A DNA stretch of 48,502 bases from a virus. Under the pieces are notes generated by a model. That model was not told the origin of the DNA, did not search any database, and saw only the letters and a list, made by a program, of their open reading frames with translations. Numbering within the stretch: the stretch's first letter is position 1; each line of letters opens with the position of its first letter. The position numbers and the translations under genes were made by a program. This document shows positions 21,377 through 48,236 of this stretch, one piece after another. The DNA lies in the IMG/VR virus record IMGVR_UViG_3300036770_006657, positions 1 through 48,502 of that record. The stretch is one strand, 5' to 3'.

Positions 21377-21769
21377 ATGGCCTATTCAGAAAAAGTATTA
21401 GATCACTACGAAAACCCTCGTAATGTGGGTGCATTTGACAAAGCAGATGACAATATAGGCACCGGCATGGTAGGAGCACCGGCATGCGGGGATGTGATGA
21501 AACTACAGATCAAAGTTGATTCAGCCACAGGCATCATCACTGATGCACGCTTCAAAACCTACGGGTGTGGTAGTGCCATCGCCAGCAGCAGCCTCGTAAC
21601 TGAAATGGTCAAAGGCATGACCCTGGATCAAGCCGGGACAATTCGAAATACTCAATTGGCAGAAGAACTGGCACTACCGCCAGTGAAAATACATTGTTCA
21701 ATTCTTGCGGAAGATGCAATCAAAGCCGCCATAGAAGACTACAGAGCCAAACATGCAGACTCAGTTTGA
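21377..21769 (+). CDS. iscU: IscU iron-sulfur cluster scaffold protein
   Basis: 130 residues, near-identical in pattern to proteobacterial IscU from the first residue (MAYSEKVLDHYENPRNVG). The cluster ligands are all present: C37 with D39 in APACGD, C64 in TYGCGSAIAS and C107 with H106 in the HscA-binding LPPVKIHC segment. IscU assembles 2Fe-2S clusters on sulfur from IscS and hands them on. No IscS, HscA or HscB is encoded here, so host partners would be used. The high similarity to host-type IscU suggests recent acquisition. AAAGGAG lies upstream. It overlaps iscA by 17 nt. Confidence 0.97.
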   Translation: MAYSEKVLDHYENPRNVGAFDKADDNIGTGMVGAPACGDVMKLQIKVDSATGIITDARFKTYGCGSAIASSSLVTEMVKGMTLDQAGTIRNTQLAEELALPPVKIHCSILAEDAIKAAIEDYRAKHADSV

Positions 21770-22091
21770 TGTCACAGATGTGGCAGCCGAAAAAATACGC
21801 ACACAGATAGAGCGGCGTGGTCACGGCCTAGGAATCCGGATAGGTGTTCGTACCACCGGCTGTTCGGGACTCGCCTATACCCTAGAATTCGTTGACGAAG
21901 AGCAGGGACGCGAAGTGTGCATGGAACATCATGACATCAATGGTATAAGAATCTATTTGGATCCTAAACATAGACCATATCTCTCGGGCATGACCATTGA
22001 CTATCAAAAAAAGGGACTCAACGAAGGGTTCGAATTCGTCAATCCCAATGAGTCAGGGCGTTGTGGTTGTGGAGAGAGCTTTACAGTTTGA
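21753..22091 (+). CDS. iscA: IscA-type A-type iron-sulfur carrier
   Basis: 112 residues with the three A-type carrier cysteines: C37 in TTGCSGLAY and C104/C106 in GRCGCGESF at the C-terminus. The fold pattern (FVDEEQGRE, then GIRIYLDPKH and GMTIDYQ) is that of IscA/ErpA/SufA. It accepts clusters from IscU and delivers them to apo-proteins. Overlapping iscU suggests co-translation. Likely clients in this phage include the radical SAM enzymes; the PD-(D/E)XK nuclease is a less certain client. IscA, ErpA and SufA cannot be told apart from motifs alone, but linkage to iscU favours IscA. Confidence 0.93.
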   Translation: MQTQFDVTDVAAEKIRTQIERRGHGLGIRIGVRTTGCSGLAYTLEFVDEEQGREVCMEHHDINGIRIYLDPKHRPYLSGMTIDYQKKGLNEGFEFVNPNESGRCGCGESFTV

Positions 22092-33297: not shown

Positions 33298-33582
33298 ATG
33301 TCAAAATCCCTCAGCCCACTTGAAACAACGATCCCGGATCTGCACCGATTCTATGTGAGCCTGACCACCACGGAACAGTGGTATGCCGTGATGCGGGAAT
33401 GCCGTGCCTGGTTCGGCGCCACATGGCGCACTCAACCCAAGATACGTCGCCGACTGGAACGCAATTTTGACAACGCCGTGGAGGCCTGGTTCGAAGTGCC
33501 CGATCCTACTTGGAGTACCTGGATAGCTACAAAGCTGGCTCTACAGGTGCGTGGTGAACCCCGCACCTTGGTCAATAAATAA
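33298..33582 (+). CDS. Hypothetical protein downstream of structured RNA
   Basis: 94 residues, Trp-rich (WYAVMRECRAWFGATWRTQ), basic in the middle, soluble. An AAGGTAA sequence lies about 7 nt before the ATG. It is the first gene after the folded leader, so its translation may be controlled by that RNA. No motif is recognised. A late-type element overlaps its last codons and serves the next gene. Confidence 0.75.
   Translation: MSKSLSPLETTIPDLHRFYVSLTTTEQWYAVMRECRAWFGATWRTQPKIRRRLERNFDNAVEAWFEVPDPTWSTWIATKLALQVRGEPRTLVNK
33575..33582 (+). promoter_or_regulatory. T4-late-like promoter element
   Basis: ATAAATAA across the stop of the 33298 gene, 6 nt before the ATG at 33589, again predicting a nearly leaderless late mRNA. 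Confidence 0.5.
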
Positions 33583-33588
33583 CTTGTT

Positions 33589-35097
33589 ATGATCTTGACC
33601 TGGCTAATGTTCCTGGTGGCCGTCTGTCTTTCGGCAGTGGCTGCTTTTTACAGCATAGTTGGCCTGGCGGCCATCTTCTCAGCTGCCATCATGCCCATAG
33701 TGATCATGGGCACTATCCTAGAAATCGCCAAGCTGACTGTGACTGTATGGTTGCACGAACATTGGCGCCAGTGCCGATGGATCATGAAGGCATACCTGGT
33801 ACCAGCAGTGGTGGTACTCATGATCATCACCTCCATGGGCATATTTGGGTTCCTTTCCAAAGCACACATCGATCAGATCATACCCACCGGAGATCGAACC
33901 TCCCAGATAGCCTTGTTTGATGAGCGCATCGCCAACGAACGTGCCACGATAGAAAACAGCCGTAGTCTTATCCGGCAGATGGATGACACTGTGAATGGCA
34001 TTATTGCGCAAGGCGAAAGCCGCGAGATCAAGTTAGGGGATGGCAGGACCATAGTGCGTTCACCAGCAGAACTGGCCCTGCAGGTACGCCGCAGCCAGTC
34101 CCGGGATCGCGATGCTCTCACCAAGACCATTGAAGAGGCACAGAAGCGCATAGTAGTTCTGCAAGAAGAGCGGGCCCCTATTGCCAAAGAAATACGTGGG
34201 CTCGAAGCCGAAGTGGGTCCCATCAAGTACGTGGCTGCCTTGATCTACGGAGACAATCCTGATACCAATCTCTTGGAACGCGCAGTGCGATGGGTCATTA
34301 TAATCCTGGTGGCTGTATTTGATCCCTTGGCTATAATGATGCTGTTGGCAGCCACCGAAAGCCTTAAATGGCACCGAGAAAGTCAAAGAAAGGATCCCGA
34401 CCATGATCCCATTGTTCCCCCAGAGCCTGATGTTGTTCGTGTTACTGACCCAGATCCACCTCGAGACCCTGAACCAGAGCTTGACGCCGTGGAGCCCCAT
34501 GTACCGCCAGTGGATCTTCCAAGACCTGCCTACCTTGATCAGGGCGGCTTCGGATTCCAAAATCTAGCACCAATGGTGGCCGCTCCAAAAATTGAAACCG
34601 CAGTTTTTGCTGAGAGCACCAACGACGATCAAGCCAAGATTGATGATCCAACACAATTCCAGCAAGAGTCTGACGATGACGACGAAGATGAAGATCAGAT
34701 ACTCAAGCAGGCCAAGAGATTATGGAAACAAGACAATCCTGGCAAAACATTGAAAGAGCAACGGCGTCTCTTGGCCATGGGCTATATCGACCACGAACCA
34801 TGGTTGCAGTATCTCGAGGATTCTCGTTTGCATCGCCAAGCTGATTTTGGAAGATCTTTGCCAGATTCGGCGCAACGCGGAGATTTGTTCGTGCGTATAG
34901 ACAAGGTGCCTACTGAACTCTACAAATTCAATGGTGATCGATGGATCAATGTAGACAAAAACATGACTGACAACTATACCTACAACGATGCCTATATCGC
35001 ACATCTGATCGAACAGATTTCGCTGGGCAACTACGAGTTTGACATGTTGACTGATGGAGAGCGCGAGCAGATCGAACGACATCTCAAACAGGATTGA
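33589..35097 (+). CDS. Large membrane protein with coiled coil
   Basis: 502 residues. Three hydrophobic helices occupy residues ~1-25, ~28-52 and ~65-90 (VPAVVVLMIITSMGIFGFL), a charged coiled coil spans ~105-205 (FDERIANERATIENSRSL; EEAQKRIVVLQEER), and a fourth membrane segment lies at ~228-252. The remainder is an acidic, proline-rich cytoplasmic tail with a run of Asp/Glu, then a folded polar domain. I recall proteins of this layout in marine T4-like phages without function. It should span the inner membrane. It precedes clpX by 3 nt, which suggests a shared transcript. Confidence 0.82.
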   Translation: MILTWLMFLVAVCLSAVAAFYSIVGLAAIFSAAIMPIVIMGTILEIAKLTVTVWLHEHWRQCRWIMKAYLVPAVVVLMIITSMGIFGFLSKAHIDQIIPTGDRTSQIALFDERIANERATIENSRSLIRQMDDTVNGIIAQGESREIKLGDGRTIVRSPAELALQVRRSQSRDRDALTKTIEEAQKRIVVLQEERAPIAKEIRGLEAEVGPIKYVAALIYGDNPDTNLLERAVRWVIIILVAVFDPLAIMMLLAATESLKWHRESQRKDPDHDPIVPPEPDVVRVTDPDPPRDPEPELDAVEPHVPPVDLPRPAYLDQGGFGFQNLAPMVAAPKIETAVFAESTNDDQAKIDDPTQFQQESDDDDEDEDQILKQAKRLWKQDNPGKTLKEQRRLLAMGYIDHEPWLQYLEDSRLHRQADFGRSLPDSAQRGDLFVRIDKVPTELYKFNGDRWINVDKNMTDNYTYNDAYIAHLIEQISLGNYEFDMLTDGEREQIERHLKQD

Positions 35098-35100
35098 TGC

Positions 35101-36312
35101 ATGGCCAAAGAACAAGAATCCTGTAACTTTTGTGGCAAGAACAAAGAACAAGTCGCCAAGCTCATAGTGGGATCAGAATCAGCAATCTGCAACGAGTGTG
35201 TGGAACTCTGTAGAGAATTACTGGTCGACGCACCTGCCATCCAAAATCAACCATCCAACGGATCTGCCCAGGATCGCGATGATCCGCAGGCACTGAAAAA
35301 TTTCCTTGATCAATATGTGATTGGACAGGATCGTGCCAAGATAACATTGGCCGTGGCAGTGATAAATCATTACAAGAGACTGCATCGTGATGCGGCTGCA
35401 CCCGAGATAGACAAAGCCAATGTGCTGATGCTGGGTCCCACTGGCAGCGGCAAAACCCTGCTTGCAAGATCTGTTAGTCGGTTTCTGGATATACCGTTTG
35501 TGATCGCGGATGCTACCAGTGTCACTGAAGCAGGCTATGTCGGCGACGATGTGGAAATGATGATAAGCCGTCTTTATATGGCCAGTGGGGAGGACATCGA
35601 AAAAACACAGAAAGGCATAGTGTTTATCGATGAAATTGACAAAATAGCACGCAAAAGCGAAAGCAGCAGCATAACCAGAGATGTCAGCGGCGAAGGCGTA
35701 CAGCAGGCCCTGCTCAAACTCGTGGAAGGCACTGTGTGCAGATTTCCTGCACGTGGTAATCGCAAACATCCACAGCAGGATGTCATAGAAATCGACACCA
35801 GTGATATTTTGTTCATTGCCGGCGGTGCCTTTGTTGGTCTGGAAGCAATCATCCACAACAGGTTATACAGCAGCAATATAGGATTCAACGGTAGGATTTC
35901 CACTGCAGCACAGGCACATCTCAGAGACCTCAATGCGGATGATCTTGTAAAGTTTGGGTTGATTCCTGAACTGATAGGGCGTTTCCCAGTCACAGTCAGT
36001 CTGGAACAGCTGACCAAAGATGATCTGCGTGCTATCATGACATCAATCAAAAACAATTGGATTTCCCAATACCAGTGGTTGTTATCACAGGACCACATTG
36101 ATCTCAATCTCAAAGACTCTGCGATTGATGCTCTAGTGGACAGGGCCATGACATACAACACCGGAGCACGTGCTCTACAGAGCGAACTTGAAAGAGCACT
36201 CTTGCCACACATGTTTCATGCCAAAACATACCAACGACAAGGGATCAAACAGATTATATTGGATGATGCATTGGTAAATAATCCTAATCAAATCAATCAA
36301 GGAGACCAATGA
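35101..36312 (+). CDS. clpX: ClpX, ATP-dependent unfoldase of the Clp protease
   Basis: 403 residues, close to the E. coli length (424). All functional parts are present: zinc-binding domain C8-x2-C11 and C30-x2-C33; Walker A GPTGSGKT (112-119); GYVG pore loop (145-148); Walker B GIVFIDEID; RKH loop (RKHPQQ); the ClpP-contacting IGF tripeptide in SSNIGFNG; sensor-2 GAR in YNTGARAL. ClpX unfolds tagged proteins and feeds them to ClpP. No clpP is in the window, so the phage enzyme should engage host ClpP, possibly with altered substrate choice. It overlaps rpsU by 4 nt (ATGA). The near-complete host-like sequence suggests acquisition from a proteobacterium. Confidence 0.97.
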   Translation: MAKEQESCNFCGKNKEQVAKLIVGSESAICNECVELCRELLVDAPAIQNQPSNGSAQDRDDPQALKNFLDQYVIGQDRAKITLAVAVINHYKRLHRDAAAPEIDKANVLMLGPTGSGKTLLARSVSRFLDIPFVIADATSVTEAGYVGDDVEMMISRLYMASGEDIEKTQKGIVFIDEIDKIARKSESSSITRDVSGEGVQQALLKLVEGTVCRFPARGNRKHPQQDVIEIDTSDILFIAGGAFVGLEAIIHNRLYSSNIGFNGRISTAAQAHLRDLNADDLVKFGLIPELIGRFPVTVSLEQLTKDDLRAIMTSIKNNWISQYQWLLSQDHIDLNLKDSAIDALVDRAMTYNTGARALQSELERALLPHMFHAKTYQRQGIKQIILDDALVNNPNQINQGDQ

Positions 36313-36530
36313 ATTTTTACGGACGATCAGTTTTAGTCACTGGCGACAACATAGACAAAGCACTACGCAAATTCAAGAAAAAGATACAAAGCAGTGGGCT
36401 TTTGCAGGAGCTGCGTGACCGAGAAACATATCAAAAACCCACTACCCGTCGCAAAACCAAACGCAGCCAGGCCAAACAACGCTGGAAAAAGTATGTCTCA
36501 AGCCAAAAATTACCAACTCGCATGTACTGA
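36309..36530 (+). CDS. rpsU: Ribosomal protein bS21
   Basis: 73 residues. NIDKALRKFKKKIQSSGLL followed by RETYQKPTTRRKTK and a basic C-terminal helix ending TRMY matches bS21 along its full length (E. coli 71 residues). bS21 sits at the mRNA exit side of the 30S subunit near the anti-Shine-Dalgarno and affects initiation. Phage S21 may replace the host protein and bias translation to phage mRNAs, including the weak-RBS and leaderless messages seen here; that is inference. Translation is coupled to clpX (ATGA) and to the next gene (TGATG). S21 genes are known in some marine phages. Confidence 0.95.
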   Translation: MNFYGRSVLVTGDNIDKALRKFKKKIQSSGLLQELRDRETYQKPTTRRKTKRSQAKQRWKKYVSSQKLPTRMY

Positions 36531-36748
36531 TGTACATTGAATTTGACATACTCACCGCCAGCGATGATTTTGACACACTGCAAGAACAAATAAACGATTG
36601 GGCACGATCGCATAGCGTGCCCTACACTACCAAAGTGGCCAAAGGTCTCCGGCTGAGACTGGGCCTCAACTGTTCTGAACACTTCACCTTGTTTTTCATG
36701 ACCTGGAATCACAGCGATTACCTGATCAAAAACGCCAATCAAACTTGA
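36530..36748 (+). CDS. Small hypothetical protein
   Basis: 72 residues beginning in a TGATG junction with rpsU. Mixed alpha/beta: an N-terminal strand (YIEFDILTA), an amphipathic helix (DFDTLQEQINDWARSH) and two further strands (GLRLRLGLN, FTLFFMTW). No motif recognised. Tight coupling to S21 hints at a shared role in translation control, without direct support. The hsp20 promoter begins at its stop codon. Confidence 0.72.
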   Translation: MYIEFDILTASDDFDTLQEQINDWARSHSVPYTTKVAKGLRLRLGLNCSEHFTLFFMTWNHSDYLIKNANQT

Positions 36749-36773
36749 CAGCCAGCGGAATTCGCTGTATAAA
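36745..36773 (+). promoter_or_regulatory. Near-consensus sigma70 promoter of hsp20 with dyad in spacer
   Basis: A perfect TTGACA at 36745-36750, 17 bp, then TATAAA at 36768-36773. The spacer holds CAGCG GAATT CGCTG (36753-36767), a 5-bp dyad that fills the space between the two boxes, as an operator for a dimeric regulator would. The -10 is also the start of a T4-late TATAAATA element. Confidence 0.8.
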
Positions 36774-36775
36774 TA
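36768..36775 (+). promoter_or_regulatory. Perfect T4 late promoter element of hsp20
   Basis: TATAAATA matches the T4 late consensus exactly and is superimposed on the sigma70 -10 box. hsp20 could thus be read by host RNA polymerase early and by the late-modified enzyme afterwards. Confidence 0.7.
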
Positions 36776-36779
36776 ACCA

Positions 36780-36803
36780 TGTAGTGCCGATGGTCGGGCT
36801 ACA
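36780..36803 (+). promoter_or_regulatory. Hairpin in hsp20 leader
   Basis: TGTAG...CTACA with inner CCGA/TCGG around a TGG loop forms a bulged stem at the 5' end of the ~60-nt hsp20 leader. AAAGGAG before the ATG is outside the stem. It may stabilise the message or be part of a temperature-sensing leader; the second is speculative. Confidence 0.45.
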
Positions 36804-36838
36804 CGTTAGTCAACTTGCTTAACAAAGGAGAAGACATC

Positions 36839-37279
36839 ATGACTAAAATCACTTCGTTTGACCTCACGCCCTTCTACAGGAACTCTGTGGGAGTAGACAG
36901 CCTCTTTAATCGCATCGTCAATCAACTGGATACCGCAGCCACTTCCGGCAACTATCCTCCCTATGACATAGTCAAAGTCAAAGACGATCATTACGAGATC
37001 CGTATAGCAGCCGCAGGATTTTTAAAGGGCGAGATTGAAGTTAAGTATCACGAAGGTATGCTCACTGTACTGGGGCGCCGATCCAGTGATGCAAATCCTG
37101 AGGTCGAATATCTGCATCATGGTATCAGCAACAGAGACTGGGCTCGTACCTTTGCCTTGGCCGATTATGTCGAAGTCAAAGACGCGGTTATGCAGGATGG
37201 AATACTCACCGTCAAGCTGGAACGAATGATTCCTGAAAGCCAAAAGCCCAAACAGATCGCTATAACCTACGCGAACTAG
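36839..37279 (+). CDS. hsp20: Small heat-shock protein Hsp20/IbpA
   Basis: 146 residues from the ATG at 36839, with AAAGGAG in the leader. The alpha-crystallin domain has YEIRIAAAGFLKGEIEVKYHEGML and DWARTFALADYVEV, ending LTVKLERMIPE with the conserved GILTVKL strand. Like IbpA it begins with an aromatic N-terminal arm (FDLTPFYRNSVGVDSLF). Small heat-shock proteins hold unfolding proteins for later refolding or degradation. They occur in many cyanophages. Here it sits between bS21 and ClpS and near ClpX, in a proteostasis cluster. A perfect 10-bp hairpin lies after its stop. Confidence 0.96.
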   Translation: MTKITSFDLTPFYRNSVGVDSLFNRIVNQLDTAATSGNYPPYDIVKVKDDHYEIRIAAAGFLKGEIEVKYHEGMLTVLGRRSSDANPEVEYLHHGISNRDWARTFALADYVEVKDAVMQDGILTVKLERMIPESQKPKQIAITYAN

Positions 37280-37300
37280 TACAATCTAGTAAATAACAAA

Positions 37301-37323
37301 TGCAAGGGGCGCCGCCCCTTGCA
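37301..37323 (+). repeat. Perfect inverted repeat between hsp20 and clpS
   Basis: TGCAAGGGGC (37301-37310) and GCCCCTTGCA (37314-37323) form a 10-bp GC-rich stem with a 3-nt loop. There is no T tract, so it is not a standard terminator. It may attenuate readthrough or protect the 3' end of the hsp20 message. Confidence 0.75.
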
Positions 37324-37340
37324 CCATGTGGGAATAAACG

Positions 37341-37652
37341 ATGAGCACAGATACTTCAAGCCAAACCAACATCGCTGTCAATCTCGAACTACAGGAACCG
37401 CCTATGTTCCGTGTGGTCTACATCAATGACAACAAAACCAGTATTGAGTTTGTGATTGACAGCCTGATAACCTATTTTTCCTACACCACTGATACTGCCC
37501 TGGTCATTACCGAGGACATACATAACACTGGCAGTGCTGTGGTAGCAGTGCTGCCATTTGAAATTGCCGAACAAAAGGGCGTGGAAATCACATTGGCTGC
37601 ACGTGCCAATGGGTTTCCTCTGCAGATACGTCTAGAGCCTGAAGTTGGATGA
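37341..37652 (+). CDS. clpS: ClpS, N-end-rule adaptor of the Clp protease
   Basis: 103 residues with the ClpS core: PPMFRVVYINDN, SIEFVIDSLITYFSY, DIHNTGSAVV and a final LQIRLEPE strand. ClpS delivers proteins with N-degron residues to ClpAP. The substrate pocket Asn-Asp is kept, the second Asp of the E. coli INDD-type sequence is Asn here, and the gatekeeper Met (E. coli Met40) is Ile, which could change which N-terminal residues fit. The pocket His is present (DIHN). ClpS works with ClpA, not ClpX, so the phage may target two Clp complexes. It converges with the phosphoesterase gene 3 nt downstream. Confidence 0.94.
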   Translation: MSTDTSSQTNIAVNLELQEPPMFRVVYINDNKTSIEFVIDSLITYFSYTTDTALVITEDIHNTGSAVVAVLPFEIAEQKGVEITLAARANGFPLQIRLEPEVG

Positions 37653-37655
37653 TGA

Positions 37656-38432
37656 CTACACTTCCACACGTCGTGGAAAGTAGACACTCTTGTATTGTGC
37701 ACTGCCGGATCTACCACGACAGTTGTTGATCAGTCTTGTGTTGCCAATATATTGATCCACCAATCCATGATAATGCCCAAAACACCAGTGTGAAATCTTG
37801 TGCTCGGTATCAAGGGCATGTACGTCAAACATCAGTGAATTGCCCATCACATTGCATTTGTATGATCCTGCAAAGTCGATGTCATTGAGTATGATATCTG
37901 CTACGGGAACAGTGTGTGTGGCCAGCACCAGTTTATTAACATCTGGCATGGTTTGGGCGCGTCTCACACAACTGCCAAGATAGTCTGTGTCAACCTCGGC
38001 CATGCGACTGATCAGTTCTGGCACGTCACTGTGACATCGATAGGTAGAAACAAACCATTGGTACAACTGTTGTGGATCTATATCGGTATCAAAATCCCAG
38101 GTCCACCAACCGTTGGTACCTACAAATCCCACTCCATTGATGACAACCATGTTGTCATAGAGATAGACCACATCCGAGTCTCGGCACACCTGGCAGATAC
38201 TTTGGTGACTGGCCTGGAAATCAGGCCATAGATCTTTGTGTTCTTCGTTGCCGTCGATATATAAAACTGTGGCATACTCGGATCTAAGAGTGGTCAATAC
38301 TTGATGCAGTTGATGATGATCACGGCAAATGTCGCCCAGCACCAAACAAATAGGAGCAGTGGCCTGACCTTCCCAACAAAAATTGTCGTTGACAGACAAG
38401 TGTAGATCTGATATTATGTCAAAGGCCAGCAT
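37656..38432 (-). CDS. Calcineurin-like metallophosphoesterase
   Basis: 258 residues from an ATG at 38432-38430; a GTG one codon earlier is less likely. Metal-binding motifs appear in order: DIISDLHLS (DxH), LVLGDICRD (GD), IDGNEEHKD (GNxE in place of GNHE), LATHTVP (H) and CFGHYHG (GHxH). This set binds two metal ions in phosphodiesterases and phosphatases. The third motif has Glu where His usually follows GN, which may alter catalysis. Substrates could be nucleotides, cyclic nucleotides or nucleic-acid ends. It converges with clpS and is divergent from the 38457 gene. Confidence 0.88.
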   Translation of the reverse strand: MLAFDIISDLHLSVNDNFCWEGQATAPICLVLGDICRDHHQLHQVLTTLRSEYATVLYIDGNEEHKDLWPDFQASHQSICQVCRDSDVVYLYDNMVVINGVGFVGTNGWWTWDFDTDIDPQQLYQWFVSTYRCHSDVPELISRMAEVDTDYLGSCVRRAQTMPDVNKLVLATHTVPVADIILNDIDFAGSYKCNVMGNSLMFDVHALDTEHKISHWCFGHYHGLVDQYIGNTRLINNCRGRSGSAQYKSVYFPRRVEV

Positions 38433-38437
38433 CACAG

Positions 38438-38456: not shown

Positions 38457-38816
38457 ATGAACATTATATTTGCCAACCGCGAAGACGCAGCTGAAATGAC
38501 CGCAAGGTATATCTTGTTAGAATTAGACACCTTCCGTATCAACGATGAGGTCAAGATATCATGGTGCGTGCTAGATCCAGCCACTGTGCCAATGACTGAA
38601 CTATGGCAAGTTGACACACTGAGAGGGCTGCACGCTAAATTGCTGGAGAGTTATCAAACCCAAAACTGGAAAAACGCAGCTGGATACCTCGAACAACTGG
38701 TTGGAAAATGGGCCTGCCAGGTAGACAGTTACTACGCCATAATGAAGAAACGCCTGGAAGATCTGACCCAGCACGATATGCCGGACTGGACACACGTGAT
38801 TGACAAACAACCCTAG
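38457..38816 (+). CDS. Hypothetical protein
   Basis: 119 residues, soluble, helical in its second half (LHAKLLESYQTQNWKNAAGYLEQLVGKW, KKRLEDLTQHDM). No catalytic or binding motif is apparent. It is divergent from the phosphoesterase with 24 nt between start codons, and is followed by about 290 nt without a convincing gene. A TTAAAT-like sequence lies in the short divergent gap, so the two genes may share a regulatory region. Confidence 0.75.
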   Translation: MNIIFANREDAAEMTARYILLELDTFRINDEVKISWCVLDPATVPMTELWQVDTLRGLHAKLLESYQTQNWKNAAGYLEQLVGKWACQVDSYYAIMKKRLEDLTQHDMPDWTHVIDKQP

Positions 38817-43394: not shown

Positions 43395-44411
43395 ATGCGT
43401 CGAATCGGCTTTTGTTGCAAATGGTTGACCGATCCCTCGGAATGCAGAGGAATGAAGGTCAATGCTGCCAACCGCGAACTCAATGGCCGCTCAACCACCA
43501 TGCGCTGGCTGCGCGAACATCGCGAAGAAGCCGAACAACGCCAGTGGGACATCATGAATCACAACGCAGCCGCTGCCCTCCGGATGGTGGAAGCCGTGGG
43601 AGCCTTGCGTCCAGAATTCCGCATGGTGCGACTGGGATCGGAAATGTTGCAAGGCTACACAGAGCGAGATTGGAAAGCCTGGTGGCAACGCCGGGAGATA
43701 CAAGATCATTGCGAACGAATATTCGCTCCCGTGGGCGAGGCTGCCCGCAGACTTGGTGTGCGACTGTCGTTCCATCCCGGACAGTTCTGCGTGTTGGCGT
43801 CTGACAACGAAGACATAGTAAATAGGAGCATAGAGGAGTTTGAATATCATGCCGACATGGCGCGGTGGATGGGTTATGGAAAAACGTTCCAAGATTTCAA
43901 GATCAATGTTCACATATCTGGACGCCAAGGTCCTGCAGGTATTCGAGCCGCCTTGCCACGACTCAGTGCCGAAGCCCGCAATTGCATCACTATCGAAAAC
44001 GACGAAATGTCCTGGGGCATCGATGCCAGTCTTGAACTCGCTGATGACCTGGCGCTTGTTCTAGATATCCATCATCATTGGATCAGGACCGGTGAATACA
44101 TTTCTCCCCAAGATGACCGTGTTAAACGGATACGTGACAGCTGGCGTGGCGCTCGCAGGCCTGTCATACATTACAGTGTCAGCCGTGAAGACCTATTCGT
44201 CGGTCATGATGCAAATGTATTACCTGACATGGCCGATCTGCTAAGTAAAGGTTACAAAAAAGCCAAACTGCGTGCGCATTCGGACTTTTACTGGAATCGT
44301 GCTGTGAATGAGTGGGCTGTCACTTTCTCCGAAGAATTTGACATCCAGTGCGAAAGCAAAGGTAAGAATCTCGCCCGTGATGCTTTTGCTGCCACACTCT
44401 TAGACAAGTAG
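43395..44411 (+). CDS. uvdE: UV damage endonuclease (UvdE/UvsE)
   Basis: 338 residues, TIM-barrel type. Family motifs occur in order: IGFCCKWL at the start, RLGSEM, LSFHPGQFCVLAS (metal-binding His), FKINVHISGRQG (His), CITIENDEMSW (Glu), LVLDIHHHW (Asp and His) and PVIHYSVSRE (His). UvdE nicks DNA 5' of UV photoproducts and some other lesions, starting repair without the UvrABC system. It suits a phage living in lit water. It has its own early-type promoter inside the upstream gene. Length and metal ligands match bacterial UvdE. Confidence 0.95.
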   Translation: MRRIGFCCKWLTDPSECRGMKVNAANRELNGRSTTMRWLREHREEAEQRQWDIMNHNAAAALRMVEAVGALRPEFRMVRLGSEMLQGYTERDWKAWWQRREIQDHCERIFAPVGEAARRLGVRLSFHPGQFCVLASDNEDIVNRSIEEFEYHADMARWMGYGKTFQDFKINVHISGRQGPAGIRAALPRLSAEARNCITIENDEMSWGIDASLELADDLALVLDIHHHWIRTGEYISPQDDRVKRIRDSWRGARRPVIHYSVSREDLFVGHDANVLPDMADLLSKGYKKAKLRAHSDFYWNRAVNEWAVTFSEEFDIQCESKGKNLARDAFAATLLDK

Positions 44412-46952: not shown

Positions 46953-48236
46953 ATGGCAAGATCAGGATTTGAATCACGTGTTATTTCACTGAAGAATTCG
47001 TGGGCGACCGATGCACGCTGGCGTGGTATCACGCGGAATTACACAGCTGAACAGGTAGTGAATCTTCAAGGATCGCAGGTACCAGACCAGCCCTTTGCCC
47101 AACAACAGGCACGCAAATTATGGCGCCTGCTCAACACTCAAGACTATGTGCATACTCTGGGTGCGCTCACTGGTATGCAGGCCCTGCAGCAGGTCAAGGC
47201 CGGCCTGAAAGCCATTTACCTTTCGGGTTGGCAGGTGGCCGGAGATGCCAATCTGGCCGGGGAGATGTATCCAGATCAGAGCCTATATCCAGCCAACTCT
47301 GTGCCAGCTGTGGTGCGTAGGATCAACAACACATTCAGGCGGGCAGATCAGGTACAATGGAGCGAGGGCATGGATGGCATCGACTTCTTTGCACCCATCG
47401 TGGCCGATGCCGAAGCCGGATTTGGCGGTGTGCTCAATGCGTTCGAACTCATGAAAGCCATGATTGAAGCCGGCGCTGCCGGTGTGCACTTTGAAGATCA
47501 ATTGGCCTCGGCCAAAAAATGTGGTCACATGGGAGGGAAGGTACTTGTATCAACTCAAGAAGCTGTTAACAAACTTGTGGCAGCCCGTCTGGCAAGTGAT
47601 GTCATGGGTGTACCTACTGTGCTGCTTGCTCGTACTGACGCTGAAGCTGCCTGTCTGGTTACTAGTGACGTGGATCCAAGGGATCAGGAGTTCATCACGG
47701 GCGAGAGGACCGTAGAAGGATTCTATCGTACTCGCAACGGCCTGGAGCAGGCACTGGCTCGTGGCCTGGCCTATGCGCCCTATGCCGATCTCATCTGGTG
47801 TGAGACTGGCGTGCCTGATCTTGAGTTTGCGAAACAGTTCGCCGAAGGTATCCGCGAACAGTATCCTGATCAGATGCTGGCCTACAACTGCTCGCCCAGC
47901 TTCAACTGGAAAAAACGACTCACAGATGATGAGATAGCTAGGTTTCAGCGTGAACTCGGCGCCATGGGCTATCGATTCCAATTCATAACATTGGCCGGCT
48001 TCCACAGTCTCAACAACAGCATGTTCGAACTGGCACATGGCTATGCAAGATCCGGCATGACGGCTTTTGTAGATCTGCAAGAACGTGAGTTTGCGAACCA
48101 GAGTCTGGGATTTGAGGCGGTACGACATCAGCGTGAAGTTGGCACCGGATACTTTGACCGAGTCACCACCACCATCGAAGCCGATGCATCAACACAGGCA
48201 CTCAAAGGTTCAACCGAAGAAGAGCAGTTCCATTGA
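46953..48236 (+). CDS. aceA: Isocitrate lyase
   Basis: 427 residues, nearly the full length of E. coli AceA (434). The catalytic loop KKCGHMGGK is intact, with [14 protein letters not shown] (metal-binding Asp/Glu), YNCSPSFNW (substrate-binding NxSPSF) and a C-terminus ending TEEEQFH. It splits isocitrate to glyoxylate and succinate, bypassing the two CO2-releasing steps of the TCA cycle. Malate synthase is not in the window. A phage could use it to save carbon for building blocks, to make glyoxylate for glycine, or to support growth on acetate. It is complete and host-like and carries a late-type promoter, so it is likely expressed in infection. Confidence 0.97.

Follow-up and report, generated by a model that had tools for sequence, protein, structure and literature searches.

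The 48.5-kb viral DNA analysed here (the window; IMG/VR record IMGVR_UViG_3300036770_006657) carries in one neighbourhood the genes for ClpX, the ribosomal protein bS21 (rpsU), a protein of 72 amino acids (aa), the small heat-shock protein Hsp20 and ClpS. Our data point to a conserved proteostasis block in which ClpX and ClpS would belong to a Clp machine of the phage's own and hsp20 would be controlled by a ROSE-like RNA leader, a reading to which we assign a probability of about 0.72. The record is classed as linear and is thus a fragment of a genome; it comes from a T4-like tailed phage, as the window encodes a UvsW-type helicase, a DnaB-type helicase, NrdA and NrdB, a T4-type DNA ligase and a tail-spike protein. 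Twelve long records of 210-345 kb (about ten of them distinct, L007/L008 and L056/L067 being near-duplicates) served as long relatives, and the lineage is one of freshwater T4-like phages of roughly 350 kb.

Conservation of the block

Retrieval from viral contigs with ClpX gave 80 loci of nearly identical order, namely a 94-aa gene, a 502-aa gene, clpX, bS21, a small gene, hsp20, clpS, a metallophosphoesterase gene on the opposite strand and a 119-aa gene. They form 31 clusters at 90% ClpX identity, with a median pairwise identity of 68%. In all 29 clusters that had at least 5 kb of downstream flank, and were therefore used for the count, hsp20 and clpS lie within 5 kb of clpX, and in 26 of them bS21 does as well. 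To avoid selecting the loci through ClpX, the retrieval was repeated with bS21, which gave all four named genes in 41 of 44 loci (hsp20 and clpS in 44/44), and with ClpS, which gave all four in 26 of 43 (clpX in 36, hsp20 in 43). The clades that have lost bS21 (L007, L011, L025, L060, L067 and near-copies) keep the rest of the cassette, and no second bS21 gene was found in the long records tested.

A first-pass annotation, made from the letters of the window, had called the five genes as a cassette, had proposed a search for their co-occurrence within 5 kb in other phages and had allowed that they might be scattered in relatives, in an order unique to this record, or joined by a chimeric assembly. 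The Pfam families and open reading frames (ORFs) agree with its gene calls, and the cluster counts bear out the co-occurrence. With the same order in the 80 ClpX-retrieved loci, and again in the bS21- and ClpS-based retrievals, chance and chimera are excluded as the source of the block.

A ROSE-like leader before hsp20

The Rfam model RF02523 (ROSE_3) matches the hsp20 leader of the window end to end with 35.3 bits (E 7e-6), that of phage Melnitz-3 with 34.1 bits and those of the relatives with 24-32.5 bits; because these scores fall below the gathering threshold, we call the leader ROSE-like and not a ROSE_3 member. Hairpin I lies at 36780-36803, whereas hairpin II pairs UUGCU with the Shine-Dalgarno sequence and AGUCA with UGACU of the start-codon region. 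Over a set of 222 leaders, 129 of them unique, U(U/C)GC stands 5' of the Shine-Dalgarno sequence in 128 of the unique ones, and hairpin II consists of an invariant UUGCU:AGGAG core and a lower stem, GUCAU:AUGAC (AGUCA:UGACU in the window), that buries the start codon.

MAFFT with RNAalifold gave a poor structure for the mixed leaders, with misaligned hairpin arms, and a covariance model (R1) built from 24 leaders, the window's included, was used instead. R1 scores the window leader, a training sequence, at 75.3 bits. In a search of the window and 11 long relatives it located the leader before hsp20 in every one (E 1e-11 to 1e-19), several of these relatives being themselves sources of training sequences. 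In 87 distinct leaders 97.9% of cells pair, against 85.5 +/- 0.4% after shuffling, and the covariation is 0.316, against 0.093 +/- 0.006 in shuffled leaders and at most 0.047 for slid structures. Hairpin I varies freely, its changes being compensated: nine of its ten pairs changed on both sides in this set (ten of ten in the motif-only set described below), and the helix cells of the U(U/C)GCU:Shine-Dalgarno pairing are 96.7-99.7% paired. The leader is an RNA, conserved and covarying, in which both the ribosome-binding site and the start codon are paired and which is tied to hsp20, dnaK and groES.

An octamer of the form [TA]ATAAATA is found 5' of 104 of the 129 unique leaders, and 45 of the 129 have a TTGACA-like -35 element with a sigma-70-like spacing of 16-18 bp; in the window, hsp20 has both a TTGACA-type -35 element and the T4-late-like octamer TATAAATA. 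A pure T4-late promoter for hsp20 was considered and left unclear, given those 45 leaders. Over the whole window there are 12 ATAAATA sites against 4.1 expected, a count reached by 1 of 100 shuffles; several stand just 5' of ORF starts (e.g. 9171, 17789, 33575, 36769 and 46924), and they are possibly T4-type late promoters.

Leaders on other heat-shock genes and in other phages

The 2.9 million viral contigs of IMG/VR were also scanned with a bare motif, CTTGCTTA-N0-10-AGGAGA-N2-9-ATGA, which selects leaders regardless of hairpin I and of most of the start-codon stem. An Hsp20 gene follows 69 of the 79 matches listed and a DnaK gene 3 of them, whereas none of the 80 matches listed for a scrambled anti-Shine-Dalgarno motif (CTGTCTTA) precedes hsp20 or dnaK (Fisher p about 1e-37, over loci that are not all independent, though their Hsp20 proteins are diverse). 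The 62 distinct motif-only leaders have a covariation of 0.354, against 0.108 +/- 0.008 for shuffled and at most 0.056 for slid copies.

Full-length dnaK occurs in 14 loci, every one of which has a ROSE-like leader, and it lies directly upstream of hsp20 wherever the order was read; the loci include L144:3472-5400, L258, L050, L209, L158, L159, L137 and L157. We rejected dnaK as a core gene, as it is absent from the 11 long relatives searched and present in other sub-lineages. Weaker R1 matches stand directly before groES in relatives G001 and G002 (E 3-4e-4), where the product was confirmed as Cpn10 and the leaders lie outside the cassette (L475:1501-1841 and L459:1219-1564), and the Rfam model also matches the groES leader of G009, a near-duplicate. 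Weak R1 matches (E 4e-4 to 0.013) precede a small gene in six genomes. Its product of about 91 aa (MFTxDxTIDAVQTGKKQFVKTFV...) has no Pfam match and is phasin-like by eye, and in several genomes the gene lies a few kb from clpP (L118:6287-6617, L116, L113, L129, L115, L132 and L460).

The leaders of cultured phages were read directly from sequence. All eight cyanophages (Syn1, P-RSM4, S-RIM2, ACG-2014f, Bellamy, S-SRM01, P-SSM5 and P-RSM3) have hairpin I and, before the Shine-Dalgarno sequence, U(U/C)GC, and so do the pelagiphages HTVC115P and Mosig, Melnitz-3 (Methylophilales) and Phosso (Sinorhizobium); PA5oct has the variant UUGCG, and the hsp20 leader of SCTP-2 is not clearly ROSE-like. 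R1 scored best on Melnitz-3 (E 6e-8) and weakly on most other cultured phages, and its whole-genome search returned no match in PA5oct, Phosso or SCTP-2, the first two of which have leaders visible by eye. In S-SRM01 (L615, NC_070963) the annotated hsp20 start falls inside hairpin I, and translation probably begins at the ATG that follows CTCGCTTTTAAAGGAG.

A phage-encoded Clp system in the long relatives

A search with PF00574 found two ClpPs in each of the 12 long records, a canonical one at about 211-272 bits and a divergent second one at 89-110 bits, and the Ser-His-Asp catalytic triad is kept in both ClpP1 and ClpP2. The Clp_N search returned one ORF per long record (12/12), for a ClpA-like protein of 750-765 aa with Clp_N and two AAA+ modules and without a ClpB-type middle domain; its best match among solved structures is E. 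coli ClpA (588 bits), above ClpC and ClpB. In all 11 full-length ClpA sequences the ClpP loop reads IGF, and HEY..EH is kept around the glutamates that contact ClpS. FtsH, considered as a further part of the set, is absent from all 12 long relatives and present in PA5oct.

Since all twelve long relatives encode two ClpPs and a ClpA-like protein, ClpX and ClpS of the window are, judging by these genomes, more likely parts of a phage-own ClpXP/ClpAPS set than mere adaptors for host ClpP and ClpA, with host ClpP as a possible extra partner. The gene content, the synteny and the intact motifs of the set can be read directly from the genomes. Of the earlier picture, the conserved cassette of proteostasis genes and bS21 with intact catalytic motifs stands, but its proposal that ClpX and ClpS would act mainly with host ClpP and ClpA is not supported in that form. 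The hsp20 unit with a ROSE-like leader of its own had escaped it.

Several observations weigh against the combined reading and set limits to it. With 35.3 bits the window leader falls short of the ROSE_3 gathering score of 43, as did those of all relatives scanned. Being invariant, the Shine-Dalgarno helix gains no support of its own from covariation. Moreover, in ViennaRNA folding by the nearest-neighbour model, which ignores the non-canonical pairs of ROSE hairpins, the median openness of the Shine-Dalgarno sequence rises only from 0.25 to 0.41 over 5-50 C, a similar rise (0.28 to 0.49) is seen with shuffled upstream sequence, and in the window itself the Shine-Dalgarno sequence is predicted to be mostly open (0.72-0.79). 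On the protein side, ClpP and ClpA are attributed to the window's phage from its relatives, as neither is in the 48.5 kb, the ClpP search of which was negative as expected for a fragment; in addition, the ClpA ORF is truncated in one of the 12 long records (relative G012), and bS21 is missing from four of them.

Organization of the locus

The features of the locus are listed in Table 1. The first-pass annotation rightly saw the first three genes as translationally coupled, both overlaps being present in the sequence: ATGA joins clpX and rpsU (36309-36312) and TGATG joins rpsU and the 72-aa gene (36528-36532). The coupling extends upstream of clpX to the 502-aa gene, because the ORF of the latter ends 3 bases before the clpX ATG. 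The hsp20 gene starts with the ATG at 36839, preceded by AAAGGAG, and not with the upstream TTG at 36815. A promoter-like motif and a leader belong to hsp20 alone, and a strong GC-rich hairpin separates it from clpS, so that a single transcript of the five genes is improbable and hsp20 is probably a separate unit; the promoter motif and structured leader led us to reject a single operon of all five genes. The inverted repeat between hsp20 and clpS is possibly a processing, stability or termination element.

Table 1. Features of the clpX-clpS locus in window coordinates. Counts over 82 ClpX loci take in the window itself and its sub-locus L001.
Feature	Position	Strand	Evidence
94-aa gene, first of the conserved neighbourhood	33298..33582	+	phmmer: 75/82 ClpX loci
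502-aa protein (p502), hydrophobic N-terminal segments	33589..35097	+	in 82/82 ClpX loci
clpX, 403 aa, full-length	35101..36312	+	Pfam: Zn finger, AAA_2, ClpB_D2-small
rpsU (bS21), 73 aa	36309..36530	+	Pfam PF01165 3.1e-16; PHROG 21469
72-aa gene	36530..36748	+	Pfam: no family
hsp20 promoter-like element, TTGACA-N17-TATAAA	36745..36775	+	overlaps TATAAATA (36768-36775)
ROSE-like RNA leader of hsp20	36778..36853	+	Rfam RF02523 ROSE_3; covariance model R1
hsp20, 146 aa	36839..37279	+	Pfam PF00011 1.5e-16; PHROG 432 2.7e-37
Perfect GC-rich inverted repeat without T-run, between hsp20 and clpS	37301..37324	+	folding z -2.5
clpS, 103 aa	37341..37652	+	Pfam PF02617 1.3e-20
Metallophosphoesterase, convergent, bounds the block	37656..38435	-	PHROG 1649; 72/82 ClpX loci
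119-aa gene, conserved neighbour	38457..38816	+	73/82 ClpX loci

Proteins of the block

ClpX of the window has the C4 zinc finger, Walker A and B, the GYVG pore loop, the RKH loop, the IGF ClpP-docking loop and sensor II, of which the RKH loop and sensor II are supported by column conservation in the alignment. Across the ClpX sequences of the lineage (81/81) there is no variation in the zinc finger, in the pore loops or in the GF of the docking loop, the tripeptide of which is [I/M/L]-G-F throughout; the pattern indicates that this ClpX is under strong constraint, and ATPase, unfoldase and ClpP-activating functions would be its putative roles. In the tree the ClpX sequences of the lineage group together (support 100) and apart from the 70 bacterial ones, with several long branches that make the deeper placement unsure. 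A recent capture of clpX from a host was ruled out, since the best bacterial matches reach only about 50-52% identity and the lineage is one viral clade; these matches are mostly from Burkholderiales and Acinetobacter, at a distance too great to decide the lineage's host.

Over its first ~270 aa the 502-aa protein has matches among hypothetical proteins, those of Mosig, XacN1 and SCTP-2 included, and the product of the 94-aa gene had no match in Pfam and PHROG searches. bS21 scores 59.2 bits for Ribosomal_S21 against a Pfam cut-off of 27. For the 72-aa protein a beta-alpha-beta-beta-alpha fold is predicted (AlphaFold2, mean pLDDT 91.9), M1, W24, K35 and R43 are invariant across 43 homologues, and a Foldseek search with the model gave no significant match. 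Hsp20 has, besides its alpha-crystallin domain, an IAI (IxI) motif near the C-terminus, read from sequence.

In E. coli ClpS, N34, D35, T38 and H66 are the residues that contact the N-degron. The equivalent N29, D30, T33 and H61 (aligned to PDB structures) are kept in 54/54 homologues of the window's ClpS, but the hydrophobic gate is not: the position of E. coli M62 is T57 in the window and Thr in all 54, and that of M40 is I in the window and M in 41 of 54. Because the M62 position is Thr in all homologues, substrate choice may differ from that of E. coli ClpS, and from its sequence the protein is best described as an adaptor with the ClpS fold, its role as an N-recognin being putative.

Comparison with known systems

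The first-pass annotation took the full set to be perhaps new as a unit, which was too strong, given that the Pseudomonas phage PA5oct (GenBank MK797984) is annotated with the same order. Like the window, PA5oct and its relatives (Paride, MIJ3 and Callisto; Wroclawvirus) have the order clpX-rpsU-small genes-hsp20-clpS, with clpP and clpA elsewhere in the genome, as in the window's lineage, and PA5oct shares hairpin I in its hsp20 leader, with UUGCG as the Shine-Dalgarno partner. Unlike in the window, their ClpX is only ~40% identical, there are two small genes instead of one, and FtsH is present; in PA5oct, p502 was not detected and R1 has no match in the whole-genome search. Seven genes of the Clp family were reported for the Agrobacterium phage Atu_ph07 (PMC6102473), and genes for ClpX, ClpA, ClpP, ClpS, bS21 and Hsp20 are reported or annotated in it and in the Sinorhizobium phages Phosso and AP-J-162; Phosso, like the window, has a ROSE-like leader before hsp20, but in these three phages the genes are scattered and clpX lies beside IF-3 and topoisomerase genes. 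The Salicola phage SCTP-2 shares a p502 homologue directly 5' of clpX, followed by a small gene and clpS, in a block without bS21 or hsp20, the latter being elsewhere.

Earlier work had already placed Clp and Hsp20 genes close to bS21 in phages. In a set of 900 phages, Chen et al. (2022) recorded Hsp20 (127) and two Clp pVOGs (50 and 47) at most ten genes away from bS21 (PMC9723584), so that Hsp20 and Clp genes among the neighbours of a phage bS21 are shared with the window. Their five clades, however, infect Bacteroidetes and have bS21 beside terminase or capsid genes, whereas bS21 of the window is coupled to clpX, and they describe no cassette, own ClpAP/XP or RNA thermometer (PMC9723584). 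ClpP, ClpS, ClpA and ClpX of jumbo phages were catalogued by Iyer et al. (PMC7824862). The 'Acinetobacter phage MD-2021a' of INPHARED (L107, CAKLQH020000005) has leuA, metX, tig and clpP-clpX in bacterial order; it and several other top ClpX matches look bacterial and were not counted as phages.

As for the leader, the two-hairpin ROSE-like leader of Pseudomonas ibpA is a working thermometer, the hairpin II of which melts between 25 and 42 C (PMC3669281). The phage leader shares with it (RF02523; PMC3669281) a length of ~60-75 nt, a stable GC-rich hairpin I, a position directly before a small heat-shock gene and, in hairpin II, the pairing of U(U/C)GCU to the Shine-Dalgarno sequence. Unlike the ibpA leader, it also pairs the start codon (GUCAU:AUGAC), also precedes dnaK and groES, is phage-borne and has a sub-threshold Rfam score, its thermometer function being suggested by analogy. 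An RNA thermometer in a phage is no novelty in itself, given the fourU thermometer known from prophage SP-beta (PMC10586365). We found none described for a heat-shock gene of a phage in the open-licence full-text literature, a scope too narrow to prove novelty.

Alternative explanations

If the block served host redirection, ClpX would compete for host ClpP, ClpS would steer host ClpAP and bS21 would enter host ribosomes. In its docking loops the phage ClpX resembles the E. coli type, Iyer et al. (2021) suggest that phage ClpS works with the ClpAP of the host (PMC7824862) and Chen et al. propose a takeover of host ribosomes by bS21 (PMC9723584); however, a phage-only machine is available, given the two ClpPs and the ClpA of every long relative, and we hold redirection to be rather unlikely, with a mixed use of phage and host Clp partners being possible. 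Equally doubtful is that the genes are together by descent, through a conserved genome order and without joint function. It would explain why unrelated neighbours (the metallophosphoesterase and the 119-aa gene) are as well conserved, and it fits the loss of bS21 in some clades and the insertion of dnaK in others, yet PA5oct keeps clpX-rpsU-(two genes)-hsp20-clpS, although ClpX of its relatives is only ~40% identical, and SCTP-2 keeps p502-clpX-(one gene)-clpS. That an assembly chimera or contaminating bacterial DNA lies behind the block could be thought of for a metagenomic fragment whose four named genes all have cellular homologues, but the recurrence of one and the same order, flanked by phage sequence, in dozens of assemblies made independently, and a ClpX that is a separate viral clade with ~50% identity to bacteria, leave it a vanishingly small chance.

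Regarding hsp20, its leader could be a structured translational control that answers to a signal other than temperature, such as a phage repressor, the state of the ribosome or mRNA stability. Protein-bound leader hairpins are known from phages, the folding energies give no sharp melting curve and RegA adjoins hsp20 in ACG-2014f and Bellamy. Such a signal nevertheless appears improbable, as the architecture and the U(U/C)GCU:Shine-Dalgarno pairing match proven ROSE thermometers (PMC3669281), the leader is strictly associated with hsp20, dnaK and groES, and it is found in phages of unrelated hosts. A role of Hsp20 and ClpX in capsid assembly or maturation and not in heat stress has slightly less to recommend it still: the late-promoter-like octamer 5' of hsp20 would suit it, and a scaffold role of HSP20 was suggested earlier, as cited in PMC7674155, but the ROSE-like leader would tie the supply of an assembly factor to temperature, and dnaK and groES carry the same leader type. 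A dual role in assembly and heat stress is possible.

Other genes of the window

An isocitrate lyase gene, for a glyoxylate-shunt enzyme unusual in a phage, lies at 46953-48236 (PF00463, 6e-112). Overlapping genes encode IscU/NifU-type (21377-21769) and IscA-type (21753-22091) proteins of Fe-S assembly, and a UvdE-type UV endonuclease is encoded at 43395-44411, with a homologue seen by eye in relative G011 (L460).

A proposed phage heat-shock response

Under the reading that we prefer, a phage-own Clp machine with hsp20 under a ROSE-like leader, clpX, bS21 and the 72-aa gene would be translated in coupling with the upstream gene for a membrane-like protein. The ClpP on which ClpX and ClpA dock would be that of the phage, with host ClpP as a possible addition, and phage ClpA would receive N-degron substrates from ClpS. 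While the temperature is low, hairpin II would block the translation of hsp20, and warming would melt it so that the small heat-shock protein is made; in relatives the set is joined by dnaK, immediately 5' of hsp20, and by groES at another site, both of which have ROSE-like leaders of their own. By likeness to the ibpA thermometers of Pseudomonas, the phage leader may thus respond to temperature, and the phage could mount a heat-shock response of its own in an infected cell in which the host is shut off.

The new element is the presence of ROSE-like leaders on phage heat-shock genes, the one on hsp20 being the most novel part. We consider it fairly probable, with less assurance than for the preferred reading, that tailed phages of freshwater, ocean and soil, T4-like cyanophages among them, run their own heat-shock response through ROSE-type leaders on hsp20, and in some lineages dnaK and groES, alongside a complete Clp system in the window's lineage. 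The presence of hsp20, a reported core gene of T4-like cyanophages, in so many aquatic phages has so far been unexplained. PA5oct, Paride and the cyanophages are cultured relatives suitable for experiments. The Clp set suggests that some phages bring a whole protease system instead of borrowing that of the host. If the reading is true, temperature would gate the folding and turnover of phage proteins without the heat-shock regulators of the host, and the outcome of infection by abundant freshwater and marine phages would be tied to water temperature at the level of translation.

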